64,000 nucleotides of DNA from Acidobacteriota bacterium (GTDB taxonomy: Bacteria; Acidobacteriota; UBA6911): contig JAISUT010000012.1 in NCBI GenBank assembly GCA_031271905.1, positions 113,209 through 177,208 on the forward strand, written 5' to 3'. Positions 12,576 to 61,767 of the stretch are shown here, in pieces (positions within the stretch are counted from its first letter, which is position 1; every line of letters starts with the position of its first letter). The notes below the pieces were generated by a model that was not told the origin of the DNA, made no database searches, and saw only the letters and a program-made list of their open reading frames with translations. The translations under genes were made by a program, and so were the position numbers.

Positions 12576-13999
12576 CCATGTTCCGGGGCGTCGGGAGGAT
12601 ACATTTCACGGGGATCGGCGGCATCGGCATGAGCGGCATCGCCGAGCTGCTGATCAACCTCGGCTGCCGCGTCTCGGGCTCCGACCTGCGGCAGGGCCCG
12701 GTCATCGACAACCTGCGCCGGCTCGGGGGCGATGTCCGCATCGGCCACGCCGCCGAGAACGTCTGCGGCGCGGAGGTCGTGGTCGTCTCCTCGGCGGTGC
12801 GCGCCGACAACCCCGAGGTCGTCGAGGCGCGGCGCTTGCAGATCCCCGTGATCCCGCGCGCGGAGATGCTGGCGGAGCTGATGCGGCTGAAATACGGCGT
12901 CGCCGTCGCAGGCTCGCACGGCAAGACCACGACCACCTCGATGATCGCCACGGTGCTGGTCGCCGGGGGCTTGGATCCGACGGCGGTCATCGGAGGCAGG
13001 CTGAACGCCTTCGGCAGCAACGCCAAACTGGGCGCGGGCGACTTCCTGGTTGCGGAGGCGGACGAGAGCGACGGGTCTTTCCTGAAGCTGAGCCCGACGG
13101 TCGCCGTCGTCACCAACATCGACCGGGAGCACCTGGACCACTACGCCGACCTTGGCGAGCTCCGCGCCGCCTTCGCGGCGTTCGCCAACAAGGTGCCCTT
13201 CTACGGCGCGGCGGTGCTGTGCCTGGACGATCCCAACGTGCAGTCGATCCTCCCCAAGGTCGAGCGGCGCGTGGTCACCTATGGCTTCGCCGGCCAGGCG
13301 GACGTCTCGGCGTCCCACATGGAGGTGAACGGCTTCGGCTCCTCCTTCCATGTCCGATACAAGGGGGCGCCCCTGGGGACGGTCAGCCTGCGCGTCCCGG
13401 GACGCCACGGCGCGCTGAACGCGCTGGCGGCGGTGGCGACCGCGCTGGAGCTGGGCATCCCCTTCAAGGACACTGCGGCGGCGCTGGCGGGGTTCCAGAA
13501 CGCGGACCGGCGCTTCCAGGTCAAGGGGGAGAGGGGGGGGGCGTTGGTCGTGGACGACTACGGGCACCACCCGACGGAGGTCGTCGCCACGCTCGGCGCG
13601 GCGCGGCGCTCCTGCGAACGGCGCATCGTGGCGGTGTTCCAACCGCACCGCTACTCCCGGACGCAGGCGCTCGAGGAGGAGTTCTCGCACGCCTTCAACG
13701 ACGCCGACGTCCTCATCGTGCTCCCCATCTATGCGGCGGGCGAGGACGCCATCCCCGGCGTCTCGTCCGAGCGGTTGGTGGAGCGCATCAAGCAGTCCGG
13801 TCACCGGGACGTCGCCTTCGCCCCCGGTCACGAGGCGGCGCTGGCCGTCCTGCACGGCCGGGCGAAGGACGGCGACCTCGTGCTGACCCTCGGGGCGGGC
13901 GACGTGTGGAAGGTGGGCGAGGCGTTTTTGAAGGGAACCTCTGAAAACCTCGCAGACAAGGCGTCGCCGCAAGTCGAAAAGCGGAGTTTGCCGGGGTAA
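12572..13999 (+). CDS. murC: UDP-N-acetylmuramate:L-alanine ligase MurC
   Basis: [73 protein letters not shown]. The last ~22 codons lie within a repeat element. Confidence 0.95.
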
Positions 14000-14053
14000 A
14001 TGAGCATTTTCGACCAAGGCGCAACGCAGTATCCGGGGTTTTTAGAGGTTCCC
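13933..14053. repeat. Dispersed palindromic element, copy 1
   Basis: GGGAACCTCTGAAAACCTCGCAGACAAGGCGTCGCCGCAAGTCGAAAAGCGGAG...CATTTTCGACCAAGGCGCAACGCAGTATCCGGGGTTTTTAGAGGTTCCC; flanked by TGAA on both sides. Confidence 0.9.
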
Positions 14054-20299: not shown

Positions 20300-20433
20300 G
20301 GGAACCTCTTAGGGGAGCCTCTAAAAAGCTCGCAGGCAAGGCGTCGCCGCAGGTCGAAAAGCGGAGTTTGCTGAGGCGAATGAGCGTTTTCGACCAAGGC
20401 GCAACGCGGCGTCCGGGGGTTTTAGAGGTTTCC
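20300..20433. repeat. Dispersed palindromic element, copy 2 (inner unit 20312-20433; an extra GGGAACCTC terminus precedes it)
   Basis: GGGAACCTCTTAGGGGAGCCTCTAAAAAGCTCGCAGGCAAGGCGTCGCCGCAGGTCGAAAAGCGG...GTTTTCGACCAAGGCGCAACGCGGCGTCCGGGGGTTTTAGAGGTTTCC. Confidence 0.9.
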
Positions 20434-22834: not shown

Positions 22835-25177
22835 ATGGCTGATACCGTGGGAGTCAACGGTGAGAGGAAGGAATTCAAGGTGGTCGGGAAGCCCAATCTT
22901 CCCGGCAGGCTGTCGTACGCGCTGGCCGCAGGCATAGCGAAGTTCGGCGCGGATTACGTCTTCGAGGACATGCTCGAAGCCAAGTTCCTGCGCAGCCCTT
23001 ACGCGCGCGCGAAGGTGACCAAGGTCGATGTCGCGGCGGCGAAGAAGATACCAGGCGTCGTGGACGTGCTCACCTGGGAGGACGAGGATCTGAAAAAGTT
23101 CGGGCGAGGTGGCGGCATGATGATGTTCGGCGGCGGGGAGCCCGCCCCCTATGTCGATGCCGAGGCCGACATGGAGGACGACGAGGTGGCGGTCATCGTC
23201 GTCGCCGAGAGCGAGGAGATCTGCGACGAGGCGCTCAAGGCGCTCGACCCGCAGTGGGAGCAGCTCCCCTTCGTCATCGACATCAACCAGGGGCGCAAGC
23301 CCGACGCCCCGGTCATCCGCCCCAACCCGCAGGGGAAGGGGAACGTCACCGTCGCCAGCGCCAACCAGGGCGATGTGGAGGCCGGCTTCAAGCAGGCCGA
23401 CCAGATCATCGAGTACGACTTCAACATGCCCGCCTTCTGCGGCCACATCCCGAACCCGCCCGCGTCGGCGGCCTATTGGTACGACGACCCGTATTACGGC
23501 GCGGAATCGCCGAGCCTGCACATCGAGGGGGCGGTGCAGCGGCGCGACTCCGTCGGCGGCATGTACGGCCTCCCCTCCGAGAAGGTGAAGCAGGAGGGGC
23601 TGTTCCAAGGCGGCAAATATTGCGACTGGGGCCTGCGCAAGACGCAGGAGATCACGCCGCTGCTGGCCAAGCGCGCGGGGCGGCCCGTGCGCATGCGCTG
23701 CCTGCGGCGCGAGATGTACGACTTCAACATGAACCAGCGCTTCACGCACCTGAAGGTCGGCTTCAAGGACGACGGGCTGATCACCGCCATCGACGACTTC
23801 TCCGTCGCCGACGCGGGGGTGCCGCCGGTCTCCACCTTGGGGACGTCGGGCGACCAGGGCTACGGCCCGTACTTCACCACCCGCTGCCTGAACATCAAGC
23901 AGACGATGGAGGTGGTCAACAGCAACCGCGGCAAGATGTACACCAGCGGCCAGCACTGCCCGTTCAACTGGGACGCGCTGACGATGGCCATCCACCTCAT
24001 CGCCGAGAAGCTGGGCAAAGACCCCATCGACATCGCCACGCTCAACCTGCACGGTCCGACCTCGCAGGAGGACACCGCCCCCGTCCCCAGCTACGACGCC
24101 TGCGTCGCCGAGGGGAAGAAGCTGATGGACTGGAACTGGCACGCCACCGGCGCGAAGAAGCTCCCCGACGGGCGGCTCCATGGCGCCAGCTTCCGCTACC
24201 AGATGTGCCCGCGCCACTCCTTCTCCGGCTACAACTGCAAGCTGGAGCTGCGGGGCGGCAAGGTCCACATGCCGACGCAAGGCCCCTGCACCGGCATCTA
24301 CGCGGTGGAGGGGAACGCGATGGTTGTGGCCGAGGAGATCGGCATCAAGTACGAAGACCTCAGCATCGACTTCGACTACCGCGAGACCTTCACCCCCGTG
24401 GGCGGCGGCAGCGACGGCACGACCGCCTCGGCGTGGGCGACCAAGGAGTGCGCCAACATCCTGAAGCAGAAGATACTGGACGCCGCCATCGAGAACGCCA
24501 ACAACCCCCCCGCCCCCGGCGGCTTCGGCGGCGTCGGCGGCGTCGGCGCCAAGCCCCAGCCGACCCCGCTGCAGGGGCTGTCGGCGGCCGACATCGACAT
24601 CGCCGACGGCGAGGTCTTCGTCAAGGCCGACCCGTCCAAGAAGATCGCCTTGGCGCAGGCCGTGGGGAGCGCGCACCTGTTCGCGACCTACTCCGGCAGG
24701 CCGCCGACGGCGCTCTGGGCCGTGGGCATGGGCAAGCTGCTCGACACCATGAACATCGCCATGTGCGAGGTGGCGGTGGACACCGAGACCGGTCTGGTGG
24801 AGATACTGCGCTTCGGCGTGGTCGCCGACCCCGGCAAGGTCATCCGGCTGACATCCTTGGAGAGCCAGATCGACCAGGTGATGGACTTCAGCGCCGGCTG
24901 CCAGTTGCAGGAGGACTACTTCTACGACGCCAAGACGGGGGTGAAGCTCAACGCCGACATGTTCGAGTACAAGAAGGTGTCGATGCTCGACATGCCGCCG
25001 GTGGACAAGAAGATGCTGGAGACCCGCGCGGGCAACGCCGCCTACGGCTCCAACGGCATCAGCCATTCGCTCGCCAACACGCACCTTGTGATCTGCGCCA
25101 TCCAGAACGCCATCGGCGTGTGGGTGGACCCGCCGGCGACGCCGGACAAGGTGCTCAAGGCGCTCGGCAAGGCATAA
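22835..25177 (+). CDS. Xanthine dehydrogenase/aldehyde oxidoreductase family molybdopterin-binding subunit
   Basis: FVFEDM..AKFLRSPYARAKVTKVDVAAAKKIPGVVDVLTWED; QEITPLLAKRAGRPVRMRCLRREM; ETFTPVGGGSDGTTASAWATKEC; LETRAGNAAYGSNGISHSLANTHLVICAIQNAIGVWVDPPATPDKVLKAL. Confidence 0.85.
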   Translation: MADTVGVNGERKEFKVVGKPNLPGRLSYALAAGIAKFGADYVFEDMLEAKFLRSPYARAKVTKVDVAAAKKIPGVVDVLTWEDEDLKKFGRGGGMMMFGGGEPAPYVDAEADMEDDEVAVIVVAESEEICDEALKALDPQWEQLPFVIDINQGRKPDAPVIRPNPQGKGNVTVASANQGDVEAGFKQADQIIEYDFNMPAFCGHIPNPPASAAYWYDDPYYGAESPSLHIEGAVQRRDSVGGMYGLPSEKVKQEGLFQGGKYCDWGLRKTQEITPLLAKRAGRPVRMRCLRREMYDFNMNQRFTHLKVGFKDDGLITAIDDFSVADAGVPPVSTLGTSGDQGYGPYFTTRCLNIKQTMEVVNSNRGKMYTSGQHCPFNWDALTMAIHLIAEKLGKDPIDIATLNLHGPTSQEDTAPVPSYDACVAEGKKLMDWNWHATGAKKLPDGRLHGASFRYQMCPRHSFSGYNCKLELRGGKVHMPTQGPCTGIYAVEGNAMVVAEEIGIKYEDLSIDFDYRETFTPVGGGSDGTTASAWATKECANILKQKILDAAIENANNPPAPGGFGGVGGVGAKPQPTPLQGLSAADIDIADGEVFVKADPSKKIALAQAVGSAHLFATYSGRPPTALWAVGMGKLLDTMNIAMCEVAVDTETGLVEILRFGVVADPGKVIRLTSLESQIDQVMDFSAGCQLQEDYFYDAKTGVKLNADMFEYKKVSMLDMPPVDKKMLETRAGNAAYGSNGISHSLANTHLVICAIQNAIGVWVDPPATPDKVLKALGKA

Positions 25178-25237: not shown

Positions 25238-26518
25238 GTGGTTCGAACAGAATTCTACGGCTGGAAGCTCTTGGGGTTCCTCTGGGCCATCGTCTTCGCC
25301 AACCTCGCCTTCCCGATCTACGGCGCCAGCGTCGTGAATGCGGTCATGGTGCAGGACTTGGACTTCGACAGGGGGACGCTCGGGTCGCTGGTCGGCTTGT
25401 TCACCGTCATGTCCGGCCTGCCGGGGCCGCTGGTGGCGGTCTCCATGAACCGCTTCGGCGTCCGGAACACGCTGGTCGGAGGCAGCCTCCTGGTCGTCGC
25501 CGGGTCGGTGGCGATGGCGACGGTGGTTCGGGGCAGCTTGGGCGCGATGCTGGCCTTCGGGGTTGTCGTCGGCGCCGGGGTCGCGGCAGGCGGCGTCATC
25601 GGCGCGCAGGCGGGGCTGGCGCGCTGGTTCGTGCGCCGCCGCGCCTTGGTGCTGGCGGTCATCAGCACCGCGAGCGGCGTCGGCGGCTTCATGGCGGCGC
25701 CCCTGCTCAACCGCTGGATAGACATGACCGGGGGCGGTTGGCGCATGGGCTGGTGGGCGATGGCGGGGCTGTCCGCGCTGGCCGCCGCCGTCGCGTTCGT
25801 CTTCGTCAAAGAACGGCCGGAAGACCTCGGACAGCAACCGGACGGCGGCGCGCCCGCGAAAGCCGCAGACGGGGACGCGACCGGCGCCAATGCGACCGGG
25901 AAAAAGGCCCGCGTCCACCGCACCGCCGAGGAATGGTCTTCCGGCGAAGCCCTCGCAGGCCACACTTATTGGCTGATGATGTTCTGCCAGATGGGGATGA
26001 GCTGCGGCTACACGGTCTTCCTCGCCCACGGGATCGTACACCTGCAAGACTCGGGGCACACGCGCGAGATCGTCGCATGGGCGCCGAGCCTGATGGCATT
26101 CGCGGGACTGTTCTCCAAAGGGATCATCGGCGCGTGGGGAGACCGCATCGACCCCCGCTACATCTGGGCGGGGCTGGTGGCGTCCTTCGGCGTCGGGATC
26201 TTCCTCCTGGCGGACGCCACCAGCGTCTCCGTGATGATTGCAGCCGCCTCCTGCATGGGGCTGGGCTTCGGCGGCGGCGTGGTCTGCCTGGCGACGGTGG
26301 TGAGCAACTACTACGGCGTCAAGCCTTTCGCGGTTCTGGCGGGGGTGGCGGTCGCCATCAACACCACGCTGGGCTCGGTCGTGCCGCCGGTCACGGGGCT
26401 GCTCTACGACAAAGGCCACGGTTACGAAGGCGTTTTCTACGTCTTGGCGGGATGGTGCGCCGTGGGCGCAATCCTGCTGACAATCATGCGCCCGCCGTTC
26501 AAGAAGCGCCCGGCATAG
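25238..26518 (+). CDS. MFS transporter (OFA/oxalate-formate-antiporter-like)
   Basis: GTG start; 12-TM-like polytopic protein, single long ORF directly downstream of the molybdopterin subunit. Confidence 0.8.
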   Translation: MVRTEFYGWKLLGFLWAIVFANLAFPIYGASVVNAVMVQDLDFDRGTLGSLVGLFTVMSGLPGPLVAVSMNRFGVRNTLVGGSLLVVAGSVAMATVVRGSLGAMLAFGVVVGAGVAAGGVIGAQAGLARWFVRRRALVLAVISTASGVGGFMAAPLLNRWIDMTGGGWRMGWWAMAGLSALAAAVAFVFVKERPEDLGQQPDGGAPAKAADGDATGANATGKKARVHRTAEEWSSGEALAGHTYWLMMFCQMGMSCGYTVFLAHGIVHLQDSGHTREIVAWAPSLMAFAGLFSKGIIGAWGDRIDPRYIWAGLVASFGVGIFLLADATSVSVMIAAASCMGLGFGGGVVCLATVVSNYYGVKPFAVLAGVAVAINTTLGSVVPPVTGLLYDKGHGYEGVFYVLAGWCAVGAILLTIMRPPFKKRPA

Positions 26519-26562
26519 GGGGGGCTCTAAAAAGCTTGCAGACAAGGCGTCGCCGCAGGGAA
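26518..26562. repeat. Dispersed palindromic element, copy 3 (left arm only, truncated)
   Basis: GGGGGGCTCTAAAAAGCTTGCAGACAAGGCGTCGCCGCAGG abutting the MFS stop codon. Confidence 0.75.
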
Positions 26563-32623: not shown

Positions 32624-33361
32624 ATGTCGCTCGATAACGTGGTCGTCATCTTGGTCGGGACCAAACACCCCGGCAACATCGGCTCGGCGGCCCGGGCCCT
32701 CGCCAACATGGGCGTCAAGCGGTTGGTGCTGGCAGCCCCCCGCTGCGAGGTCAACGAGGAGTCGCAACGCCTCGCGAAGGCGGGGGCGGACGTGCTCGCC
32801 TCGGCGAAGGCCTACCCCTCCTTGCGGGCGGCGGTCGCGGGGGTGGGCCTGCTGGTCGGGACCACCGGCAAGGAGGGCGGCTACCGCGCCGGGGCGGCGA
32901 CGCCGCGCGCGCTGGCGCCGAGGATCCTCGCCCACGCGGCGGGGCAGGACGTGGGCATCGTTTTCGGCCCGGAGGACACGGGGCTGGTCGATGAAGACCT
33001 GCGGCTCTGCCAGCTCCTCGTCCGCATCCCCACCGACCGGGACGCCCGCAGCCTCAACCTCGCGCAGGCCGTGATGATCGTCGCCTACGAACTGATGCTC
33101 GGGAGCTTGGCGCGCGAGCCGGGGCGTGCGTTGAAGCTCGCGCGGGTGGAGCAGGTCGAGGCCATGTACGCGCAGTTGGAAGCGGCGCTGCTGGAGATAG
33201 GCTTCCTGCAGCCGCAGAACGCGCAGCACATGATGTTCGCCTTGCGCAAGCTGCTGGGGCGCGCCGGGCTGGAGTCCTCCGACGTGGGCGTCCTGCGCGG
33301 CATCGCCCGCCAGATCGGCTGGTGCGCGAAAAAACAGGGGCGAGCCTCTAAAAACCCCTAA
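32624..33361 (+). CDS. trmJ: TrmJ-like SpoU-family tRNA methyltransferase
   Basis: VVILVGTKHPGNIGSAARALANMGVKRLVLAAPR; IVFGPEDTGLVDEDLRLCQLLVRIPTDRDARSLNLAQAVMIVAYEL. C-terminus and stop codon lie in a repeat element. Confidence 0.9.
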   Translation: MSLDNVVVILVGTKHPGNIGSAARALANMGVKRLVLAAPRCEVNEESQRLAKAGADVLASAKAYPSLRAAVAGVGLLVGTTGKEGGYRAGAATPRALAPRILAHAAGQDVGIVFGPEDTGLVDEDLRLCQLLVRIPTDRDARSLNLAQAVMIVAYELMLGSLAREPGRALKLARVEQVEAMYAQLEAALLEIGFLQPQNAQHMMFALRKLLGRAGLESSDVGVLRGIARQIGWCAKKQGRASKNP

Positions 33362-33411
33362 AACCTCGCAGACGGGGCGCGACGCGGCGTCCGGGGTCCT
33401 TAGATGCCCCC
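33337..33411. repeat. Dispersed palindromic element, copy 4 (core-deleted short form)
   Basis: GGGGCGAGCCTCTAAAAACCCCTAAAACCTCGCAGACGGGGCGCGACGCGGCGTCCGGGGTCCTTAGATGCCCCC. Confidence 0.8.
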
Positions 33412-41209: not shown

Positions 41210-42055
41210 ATGGAAAAGATGTTCGCAAATCGTGTGGGGAGGATCATGAAAGAGAGCCTGGCAACCGCAGCACGCAATTCCACCGCGCCCGCCGCCGACC
41301 CGTCGGCGCCCCTGCCGACCGAGCTGTCCGGCGACCCGTCCAGCATGCAGGATCGGACGCTGATCAGCCGGACGAGGGACGGCGACCAGGACGCCTTCGA
41401 GGAGCTGGTGCGCAAGTACCAGCGCCATTTGCTGAACCTCGTCTGCTGGCACGCGGGCCCGGCCGCCGACACCGACGACATCCTGCAACTCATCCTCTGC
41501 AAGGTCTATTTCTCCCTGAAGAAGTTCGACCTCAACCGGCCTTTCTACCCCTGGCTGCGCCGCATCGCCGTCAACCGTTGTTTCGACGAGCGCCGCCGCC
41601 TGCGCCGCCGCAAGGCGCTGACCTTCGCCGAGCTCGATTTGGATGAGGGGGGCGTCGGGATGGAGGCGCCGGCCGCCTCCTCGAACAACCCCTTTGCGGA
41701 GGAGAACCGCAAGGAGCTGGGCGACATGTTGCGGACGGTGCTGCTCCGGCTCCCCGACGACTACCGGGAGATACTCGTCCTGCACCATCTGGAGCAGCTC
41801 CCCTACGAGGAGGTCGCCCCCATGATGCGGTGCACGGCCCAGGCCGCGCGCGTCAAGGCGTGCCGGGCGCGGGCCGCGTTGCGCCGCCTGCTCCTGCGCA
41901 CCTGCGAGGAGTCCGCCATCCCCTTCTCCCCCTCCGACCTGACGCGCATCCTGGACGCCTGTTGCCGGCAGCCCGGCGCGGCGGGGGGGCGCGGCGCACC
42001 GCCGCGGGCGCCGCAAGCGTCGTTGGGCGGGGGCTTGGTGTTCTGCAACGCATAG
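41210..42055 (+). CDS. ECF-type RNA polymerase sigma factor
   Basis: RTLISRTRDGDQDAFEELVRKYQRHLLNLVCWHAG...DDILQLILCKVYFSLKKFD...FYPWLRRIAVNRCFDERRR; LRLPDDYREILVLHHLEQLPYEEVAPMMRCTAQAARVKACRARAALRRLL. Confidence 0.85.
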   Translation: MEKMFANRVGRIMKESLATAARNSTAPAADPSAPLPTELSGDPSSMQDRTLISRTRDGDQDAFEELVRKYQRHLLNLVCWHAGPAADTDDILQLILCKVYFSLKKFDLNRPFYPWLRRIAVNRCFDERRRLRRRKALTFAELDLDEGGVGMEAPAASSNNPFAEENRKELGDMLRTVLLRLPDDYREILVLHHLEQLPYEEVAPMMRCTAQAARVKACRARAALRRLLLRTCEESAIPFSPSDLTRILDACCRQPGAAGGRGAPPRAPQASLGGGLVFCNA

Positions 42056-42176
42056 GGGAACCTCAAAAAAAACCGGACGCTGCGTTGCGCCTTGGGTGAA
42101 AAGCGGAGTTCGCCGAGGCGGATGGGCGTTTTCGACCTGCGGCGACGCCTTTTCCGCGAGGTTTTTAGAGGCTCCC
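42056..42176. repeat. Dispersed palindromic element, copy 6 (reverse arms, forward core)
   Basis: GGGAACCTCAAAAAAAACCGGACGCTGCGTTGCGCCTTGGGTGAAAAGCGGAGTTCGCCGAGGCGGATGGGCGTTTTCGACCTGCGGCGACGCCTTTTCCGCGAGGTTTTTAGAGGCTCCC; CATA on both flanks. Confidence 0.9.
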
Positions 42177-42306
42177 ATAAGGGGGGCGGGGGCGCGTCGA
42201 GGGGCCGAGGTGCGGCGGTCGCCGGCGCCCGCCGGTTCCGGCCGGCGCGACGATTTCGAGGCGGCGGTTGTTTATGCGACGGCTTTTTAATGTTATAAAA
42301 CATGCC

Positions 42307-52560: not shown

Positions 52561-52670
52561 GGGAACCTCTGAAAACCCCGGACGCTGCGTCGCGCCTTGG
52601 TCGAAAACGCCCATTCGCCTTGGCGAACTCCTCTTTTCGACCTGCGCCTGCGAGGTTTTTGGAGGTTCCC
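52561..52670. repeat. Dispersed palindromic element, copy 7 (reverse orientation, small deletion in one arm)
   Basis: GGGAACCTCTGAAAACCCCGGACGCTGCGTCGCGCCTTGGTCGAAAACGCCCATTCGCCTTGGCGAACTCCTCTTTTCGACCTGCGCCTGCGAGGTTTTTGGAGGTTCCC. Confidence 0.9.
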
Positions 52671-55806: not shown

Positions 55807-55926
55807 GGGGGCCTCCAAAAACCCCGGACGCTGCGTTGCGCCTTGGTCGGAAATGCCCATCCGCCTCGGCGAACTCCGTTTTCGACCTGCGGCGACGCCT
55901 TGTCTGCGAGGTTTTTAGAGGCCCCC
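55807..55926. repeat. Dispersed palindromic element, copy 8 (reverse orientation)
   Basis: GGGGGCCTCCAAAAACCCCGGACGCTGCGTTGCGCCTTGGTCGGAAATGCCCATCCGCCTCGGCGAACTCCGTTTTCGACCTGCGGCGACGCCTTGTCTGCGAGGTTTTTAGAGGCCCCC. Confidence 0.92.
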
Positions 55927-60049: not shown

Positions 60050-61003
60050 GTGAGCGATGTCCGCGAGAAACTGATAACGAAGGTTGCCGACCGTCTGGCG
60101 GGGAAAGACCGCAAACTCGCCTTCTTTCCCGGCATGACCAAGGACTGCCGGACCGGGTTGCCGTCGCGGGACGTGTGCCTGGACGTCATGCGGCAACTCC
60201 GCTCCATCCTCTTCCCGGGCTACTTCCAACTCGCCGAGTTCAGCGGCGAGGGGATGGTGTTCCACATCGGCGCCATCCTGGATCGCGTCGCCTTCGCCCT
60301 GCAAGACCAGATACACCGGGGCTACTGCTTCGCCTGCGGCGGCGAGGACGGGGCGACGGGCGACGGCGACAAGCAATGCGAGTCTCACGCCGGAGAGCTC
60401 ACCGACGCCTTCCTGGGGAAGATCCCCGAGATCGCCGCGTTGCTGGAGGCGGACGTGCAGGCGGCATACGACGGCGACCCGGCGTTGCAAAGCCCGAGCG
60501 AGGCGATCTTCTGCTGCCCGGGCATCTTCGCCATCACGAACCACCGGGTCGCGCACGAGTTCTACAAGCTGGGCGTGCCGATCATCCCCCGCATCATCAG
60601 CGAGAACGCCCACAGCGTGACCGGCATCGACATCCATCCCGGCGCGCGCATCGGCAAGAGCTTCTTCATCGACCACGGCACGGGCGTGGTGATCGGCGAG
60701 ACCTCCGTGATCGGCGACGGGGTGCGCATCTACCAAGGGGTGACGCTCGGGGCGAAATCCTTCCCCTTGGACGGGAACGGCGTCCCCATCAAGGGCATCG
60801 ACCGCCATCCGATCATCGGGGACGGCGTGGTCATCTACGCGGGCGCGACCATCCTGGGGCGCGTCACCGTCGGCTCGGGCTCGGTCATCGGCGGCAACGT
60901 CTGGTTGACGCGGAGCGTCCCGCCCGGCAGCTTCATCTCGCAGGGGCGGGAGCCCAACGGCAAAGACGTGTTCCAGACGCCGGGGGAGCAGTCTTTCATA
61001 TGA
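60050..61003 (+). CDS. cysE: Serine O-acetyltransferase
   Basis: AHEFYKLGVPIIPRIISENAHSVTGIDIHPGARIGKSFFIDHGTGVVIGETSVIGDGVRIYQGVTLGAKSFP (left-handed beta helix). Confidence 0.9.
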   Translation: MSDVREKLITKVADRLAGKDRKLAFFPGMTKDCRTGLPSRDVCLDVMRQLRSILFPGYFQLAEFSGEGMVFHIGAILDRVAFALQDQIHRGYCFACGGEDGATGDGDKQCESHAGELTDAFLGKIPEIAALLEADVQAAYDGDPALQSPSEAIFCCPGIFAITNHRVAHEFYKLGVPIIPRIISENAHSVTGIDIHPGARIGKSFFIDHGTGVVIGETSVIGDGVRIYQGVTLGAKSFPLDGNGVPIKGIDRHPIIGDGVVIYAGATILGRVTVGSGSVIGGNVWLTRSVPPGSFISQGREPNGKDVFQTPGEQSFI

Positions 61004-61767
61004 GGGGACCTCTAAAAACCTCGCAGACAAGGCGCAACGCCGCGTCCGGGGGAGGCGTCGCCGGGGCTGTCCGCGCCGCGTTGCGGGAGCGCATCGACCC
61101 GGAGAAGGCGGTCGTCCTGCCGCGCTTTTTCAAGACCGGCCCCGGCCAGTACGGCGAGGGCGACAAATTCCTCGGCGTCGCGGTCCCCGGCGTCCGTCAG
61201 GCGGTGAAACCCCACTTGGACGCGCCGGAGGCGGACATCCTCGCGTTGCTCCGCTCGGAATACCACGAGGAGCGGCTGGCGGCGCTCGTGATCCTGGTGG
61301 GGCGATACCGGCTCGCGCGCAGGGAGGGCGATGCGGCGCGGCAAGAGGCGGTCTTCCGCTTCTACCTCGCGAACACGGGGCGCGTCAACAACTGGGATCT
61401 GGTGGACTTGAGCGCGCCCCACATCGTCGGGGCGCACCTTTTCGGGAAAAGCACGGCGCTTTTGACCGAGCTGTCCGCGTCGCCCAGCGTCTGGGAGCGG
61501 CGCATCGCGATCATCGCGACGCACCATTTCATCCGCGAGGGGGACTGCCGCGAGACCTTCCGCATCGCCAGGCGGCTGCTCGGCGACCGGCACGACCTGA
61601 TCCACAAGGCGGTCGGCTGGATGTTGCGCGAGGCGGGGAAGCGCTGCTCGCTCGAAGCGGAGCTGGCGTTCCTCGACCGGCACCGCGCCGAGATGCCGCG
61701 CACCGCGCTCCGCTACGCCATCGAACGCTTCCCCGAAGGGTTGCGCCGCGCCTACCTCGCCCGGTGA
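61000..61767 (+). CDS. AlkD-like DNA alkylation repair protein
   Basis: VVLPRFFKTGPGQYGEGDKFLGVAVPGVRQAVKPH...NNWDLVDLSAPHIVGAHLF...WERRIAIIATHHFIREGD...LIHKAVGWMLREAGKR. First ~17 codons lie in a repeat-element remnant. Confidence 0.88.
   Translation: MRGPLKTSQTRRNAASGGGVAGAVRAALRERIDPEKAVVLPRFFKTGPGQYGEGDKFLGVAVPGVRQAVKPHLDAPEADILALLRSEYHEERLAALVILVGRYRLARREGDAARQEAVFRFYLANTGRVNNWDLVDLSAPHIVGAHLFGKSTALLTELSASPSVWERRIAIIATHHFIREGDCRETFRIARRLLGDRHDLIHKAVGWMLREAGKRCSLEAELAFLDRHRAEMPRTALRYAIERFPEGLRRAYLAR
61004..61052. repeat. Dispersed palindromic element, copy 9 (core-deleted, right terminus lost)
   Basis: GGGGACCTCTAAAAACCTCGCAGACAAGGCGCAACGCCGCGTCCGGGGG. Confidence 0.8.

Follow-up and report, generated by a model that had tools for sequence, protein, structure and literature searches.

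The window analysed here is a 64,000-nt stretch within one contig (C64) of a 3.4-Mb draft genome from an Acidobacteriota bacterium, assembled in 67 contigs. On its plus strand, a sigma-factor-like gene (41210–42055) ends with its stop codon directly adjoining a 121-bp hairpin element, copy 6 of a repeat family, which occupies positions 42056–42176. The element is flanked by a 4-bp target-site duplication, a trait of the family as a whole, in which ATAG (42052–42055, overlapping the stop codon) and ATAA (42177–42180) are identical at three of four bases. The best named matches to the sigma-factor protein lie in Acidobacteria MAGs, at 60–68% identity, and the insertion site is empty in relatives: in two related Acidobacteria MAGs (L240 and L241), the sigma gene and the gene that follows it are retained with no element between them.

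Copy 6 matches the family profile over positions 1–121 on the minus strand (C64:155264–155384), with both its outer and its inner arms in that orientation. On the minus strand, its arms agree with those of copies 1, 2, 7 and 8 (CCTCGCGGAAAAGGCGTCGCCGCAGGTCGAAAA ... CAAGGCGCAACGCAGCGTCCGG), whereas the core has CGCCCATCCGCCTCGGCGAACTCCGC in place of the usual GCGGAGTTCGCCGAGGCGGATGGGCG, of which it is the reverse complement. This 26-nt core (42103–42128) is therefore in plus orientation, inverted relative to the arms, and the inverted segment of the alignment runs through the consensus from position 80 to position 39. The inner inverted repeat of the family, GGTCGAAAA/TTTTCGACC, is intact on one side of the core (42129–42137, TTTTCGACC) and degenerate on the other (42094–42102), where it reads GGGTGAAAA on the plus strand and TTTTCACCC on the arm-forward strand. 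An earlier sequence-only reading of this DNA, which had the core bounded by exact GTCGAAAA/TTTTCGAC repeats, is thus right for one side and not for the other. Within the core, on the plus strand, sits a small hairpin (TTCGCC-GA-GGCGGA, 42109–42122) at a place where the family shows compensatory changes. Folding z-scores were −5.9 and −6.9 for the left-to-right strand of two normal copies, and −2.5 and −3.5 for the two strands of copy 6.

A MITE-like hairpin family

The 121-bp family consensus, GGGAGCCTCTAAAAA CCTCGCAGACAAGGCGTCGCCGCA GGTCGAAAA GCGGAGTTCGCCGAGGCGAATGAGCA TTTTCGACC AAGGCGCAACGCAGCGTCCGGGG TTTTTAGAGGTTCCC, forms one long imperfect hairpin along its whole length, with small internal loops. 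Genome-wide, the two arm patterns matched 121 and 128 places, and 168 distinct copies were recovered from the fetched loci, 145 of them full length. Among 39 relatives searched, the family was present only in G002, a species of the same genus, which carries a homologous family of 70 copies, 68 of them full length when aligned to the profile. Exact arm matches were absent from GTDB contigs, Rfam yielded no match for the element, and a few text searches of the literature, which were not exhaustive, found no description of the family.

Several features of sequence variation accompany this family. The core mini-hairpin (consensus positions 55–68) varies in a compensatory manner, with C-G, U-G and U-A occurring at the same pairs, and the surrounding GCGGAG...TGAGCA is kept between the two species despite diverged arms. 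Five copies (L034, L082, L072, L085 and L109) represent a subfamily distinguished by its right arm, where GGCGCCGGCGCTG replaces GGCGCAACGCAG.

The ends of the element are imperfect 15-bp terminal inverted repeats, positions 1–15 of the outer stem mostly pairing with positions 107–121. Exact 4-bp target duplications flank 48 of 139 copies, compared to 3.4 expected when flanks are re-paired, and 23 of 64 copies in G002, compared to 1.6 expected; no other duplication length is prominent to such a degree. These terminal repeats and duplications, together with the insertion at the sigma-factor stop codon and the empty site in relatives, identify the family as MITE-like. A mobilising transposase was not found among PF01797, PF13701 and PF01609: the genome contains no PF01797 (Y1 transposase) match, although control genomes do, no PF13701 transposase, and a single PF01609 gene that lacks matching element ends nearby.

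Core orientation across copies

We aligned each full-length copy to the family profile under three models: a strictly forward alignment, a forward alignment in which forward jumps were free, and one that admitted a single inverted segment. The forward-jump model served as a control that absorbs deletions and duplications, and the gain was taken as the margin by which the inverted model beat the better of the two forward ones. Core and arms agree in orientation in 142 of 145 full-length copies in this genome and in 68 of 68 in G002. The three flipped cores are those of L003 (C63:9619–9738), L002 (C32:20750–20880) and copy 6, with gains of 57.0, 44.7 and 35.8 bits, respectively, against a maximum of 5.3 bits among 2,000 simulated copies in which every column was drawn at random. 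The reverse arms and forward core that the sequence-only reading had described in copy 6 are therefore confirmed, and are not a product of chance. Two further copies fall slightly above the null maximum: L075 (8.8 bits), which may belong to a subfamily whose right arm is variant, and L096 (6.7 bits), whose right inner arm is cleanly converted to the reverse complement of the left, with the core unflipped. No flips are claimed for G002, where the highest gain, 5.7 bits, stayed below the 6.3 bits reached by the simulated null.

A genome-wide search for both possible flipped junctions, allowing up to three mismatches, detected the flipped order at copy 6, L002 and L003 and nowhere else, although strongly decayed copies could hide more flips. 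An initial tally with fixed anchors (115 forward, 1 reverse) missed the two asymmetric flips because the inner arms of both are altered, and is superseded by the junction searches and jump alignment. Flips are rare, although copy 6 is not the only one, and each is a singleton whose junctions no other flip shares. The tabulation of core against arm orientation that the sequence-only reading had proposed thus came close to a core that always tracks its arms, or to a lone copy 6, but stopped short of either. An element whose core flips back and forth is not supported, given these singletons and the many copies in which core and arms agree.

All three flipped copies have flanks that agree at three of four target-duplication bases, so their outer frames look like ordinary insertions. 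Because every full-length copy in the sister family has the normal orientation, the flipped core is the derived state. The case for the flip events, three in all, comes from comparison with paralogs.

Breakpoints and the origin of the flips

The points at which the alignment changes strand are stem partners in all three flips: 42/80 and about 40/82, both in the GGTCGAAAA/TTTTCGACC stem, and about 33/88 in the CGCC/GGCG stem. In copy 6, both points lie at the inner inverted repeat; the first stem was used on both sides, which makes the flip symmetric. L002 enters at the first stem and exits at the second, leaving both inner arms of the left type, while L003 follows the opposite course and has both inner arms of the right type. 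The perfect inner repeat consequently differs in length among copies, reaching 15 bp in L002, 15 bp in L096 and 11 bp in L003. Ordinary copies have at most 9 bp, since an internal loop (GCA against AA) breaks their stem. Arm homogenisation is absent from copy 6 itself. Strict arm conversion without a flip is seen mainly in one copy of this genome, L096, and some G002 copies, such as L164, also have perfect 15-bp inner stems.

We consider it likely that copy 6 inserted in the ordinary way, as one of many copies of a MITE-like hairpin, and that its loop was turned when DNA replication switched template twice. At the inner inverted repeat (GGTCGAAAA), the nascent strand would detach from its template and pair with the corresponding segment of the complementary one (TTTTCGACC); the core would then be copied off the complementary strand before a return on the other side of the stem. 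The template for this step was presumably the element's own opposite strand. Such copying is favored because L002 and L003 each lost one inner arm and doubled the other, whereas an inversion by cutting and rejoining keeps both. The two sister cases suggest that copy 6, too, was made by copying rather than by cutting and rejoining. Arm homogenisation and spacer inversion are both described as products of template switching between inverted repeats (PMC8604942), and loop inversions in rRNA hairpins, bacterial ones included, have been attributed to the same process (PMC8794818). For E. coli quasipalindromes, imperfect inverted repeats are reported to be mutational hotspots at which template switching perfects the arms (PMC7202029).

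A conservative intramolecular inversion, in which recombination between the two 9-bp inner inverted repeats would cut and rejoin the core, is the reading that copy 6 by itself serves as well as a template switch: the copy is symmetric, has an inner repeat at both bounds, and fits the two mechanisms equally well. Such an inversion cannot alone produce the loss of one inner-arm version and doubling of the other in L002 and L003, and 9 bp is short for homologous recombination; we therefore regard it as unlikely. The asymmetric flips fit a double template switch inside the hairpin better than either this inversion or the action of an invertase. The sequence-only reading had offered recombination or template switching at the inner repeats as sources of the flip; the inner repeat is indeed where copy 6 changes strand, and template switching gains from the asymmetric copies that conservative inversion fails to explain. 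A site-specific invertase flipping the core as a genetic switch would suit a segment bounded by inverted repeats, but is highly improbable: 142 of the 145 copies here, and all 68 in the sister species, have the normal orientation, and the three flips have three different junction sets.

Two artifactual or trivial origins also bear on the same data. A draft of 67 contigs with many similar copies invites assembly errors or chimeras, but we think this explanation very unlikely. Every flip has flanks of its own that carry near-matching 4-bp duplications, its outer arms are intact, the correct order resumes to either side of it, and the other 142 copies are normal. Independent point mutations could in principle make an imperfectly palindromic core look inverted, as the core is partly self-complementary and a flip alters fewer bases than it would in random sequence. 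That account is hardly credible when the gains of 36–57 bits are set against the 5.3-bit maximum for column-wise random copies, and when the copy 6 core equals the inverted reference core at 26 of 26 positions.

Orientation relative to genes

Using gene calls from a simple codon model, which include some errors, we found that elements between tandem genes are predominantly co-directional (85 versus 19 antisense, p = 4e-11); the corresponding counts in G002, 21 versus 11, were not significant (p = 0.11). Copy 6 and L002 are antisense copies whose flipped cores lie in the sense direction, while L003 is co-directional. Antisense copies account for two of the three flips, compared to 17 of 142 normal copies (p = 0.045), a post hoc comparison involving three events. 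One reading of this pattern is that the core is an orientation-dependent module, read in sense as RNA or as a single-strand hairpin, and that flips survive preferentially in antisense copies by restoring the core to the sense strand; we think it very unlikely.

Among changes at paired positions, G-U pairs outnumber A-C mismatches overall and in shared variants. Selection on the RNA after insertion was considered and dropped, because rare private changes comprise 67 G-U and 73 A-C, taken as equal, and no difference in broken stem pairs was seen when co-directional copies were compared with antisense ones (p = 0.40).

Relation to known systems

The closest parallels are events in which a segment turns in place within a hairpin. 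In yeast, template switching inverts a spacer in place between inverted repeats, a product that needs two switches, and homogenises the arms in some events; those spacers are short (2–5 substitutions) and lie in coding genes, whereas the flips described here span 40–49 nt in a multicopy intergenic bacterial element (PMC8604942). The rRNA cases likewise involve a loop turned between paired stem positions, in bacteria among others, with interstrand switching invoked, but their loops are typically 4 nt and at most 7–8 nt, whereas here the whole inner stem-loop is turned (PMC8794818). Imperfect inverted repeats whose arms are made perfect are shared with the E. coli quasipalindrome mutations, which are reported to have been assayed at chosen reporter sites, while ours are natural events that include core inversion (PMC7202029). 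The present flips add an example to an established process, and the repeat family that hosts them was not found described in the text searches made.

As an element, the hairpin resembles bacterial MITEs in being short, present in high copy number, and equipped with terminal inverted repeats and target duplications; it differs in being a single long hairpin with a conserved core, and no autonomous partner was found. It shares with REP/REPIN sequences and their RAYT transposases the character of an abundant extragenic palindrome that folds as a hairpin, but here a Y1 transposase was not detected, the target duplication is 4 bp, and the consensus lacks a GTAG or CGTC end tag (PMC3733652).

A different comparison is offered by invertible switches. 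In fim- and Hin-type systems, a segment between inverted repeats occurs in two orientations, as does the core here. Unlike in those switches, however, orientation in this family is nearly fixed, the junctions vary and arms have been converted. The flip of copy 6 belongs to a known class of mutation; it is a rare, isolated event and not a switch, a caution that mixed orientation within a repeat need not imply one. With about 145 parallel full-length copies in one genome and a homologous family in a second species, the element is a natural test bed for the frequency of template-switch loop flips or arm conversions and the stem positions at which they occur. Its flips, carried in a bacterial chromosome, are longer than the loop inversions of the yeast and rRNA studies (PMC8604942, PMC8794818).

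Other copies in the window

Elsewhere in the window, the core follows the arms in two plus-strand copies (13933–14053 and 20313–20433), and two minus-strand copies are also normal, one with a left-arm deletion (52561–52670) and the other being copy 8 (55807–55926). The sequence-only reading had called copy 8 the full reverse complement of copies 1 and 2, a relationship that holds at about 83–86%.

Short forms of the element, with arms joined at a shared AAGGCG, occur at 61001–61051 and 33360–33396 and at four further loci (L193, L080, L114 and L128). They look as if the inner part had been deleted between direct repeats, or as if they formed a separate short subfamily. At 26516–26556, the left arm of a truncated element stands alone and is followed by other sequence, which is itself 88% like the stretch at 24111–24161.
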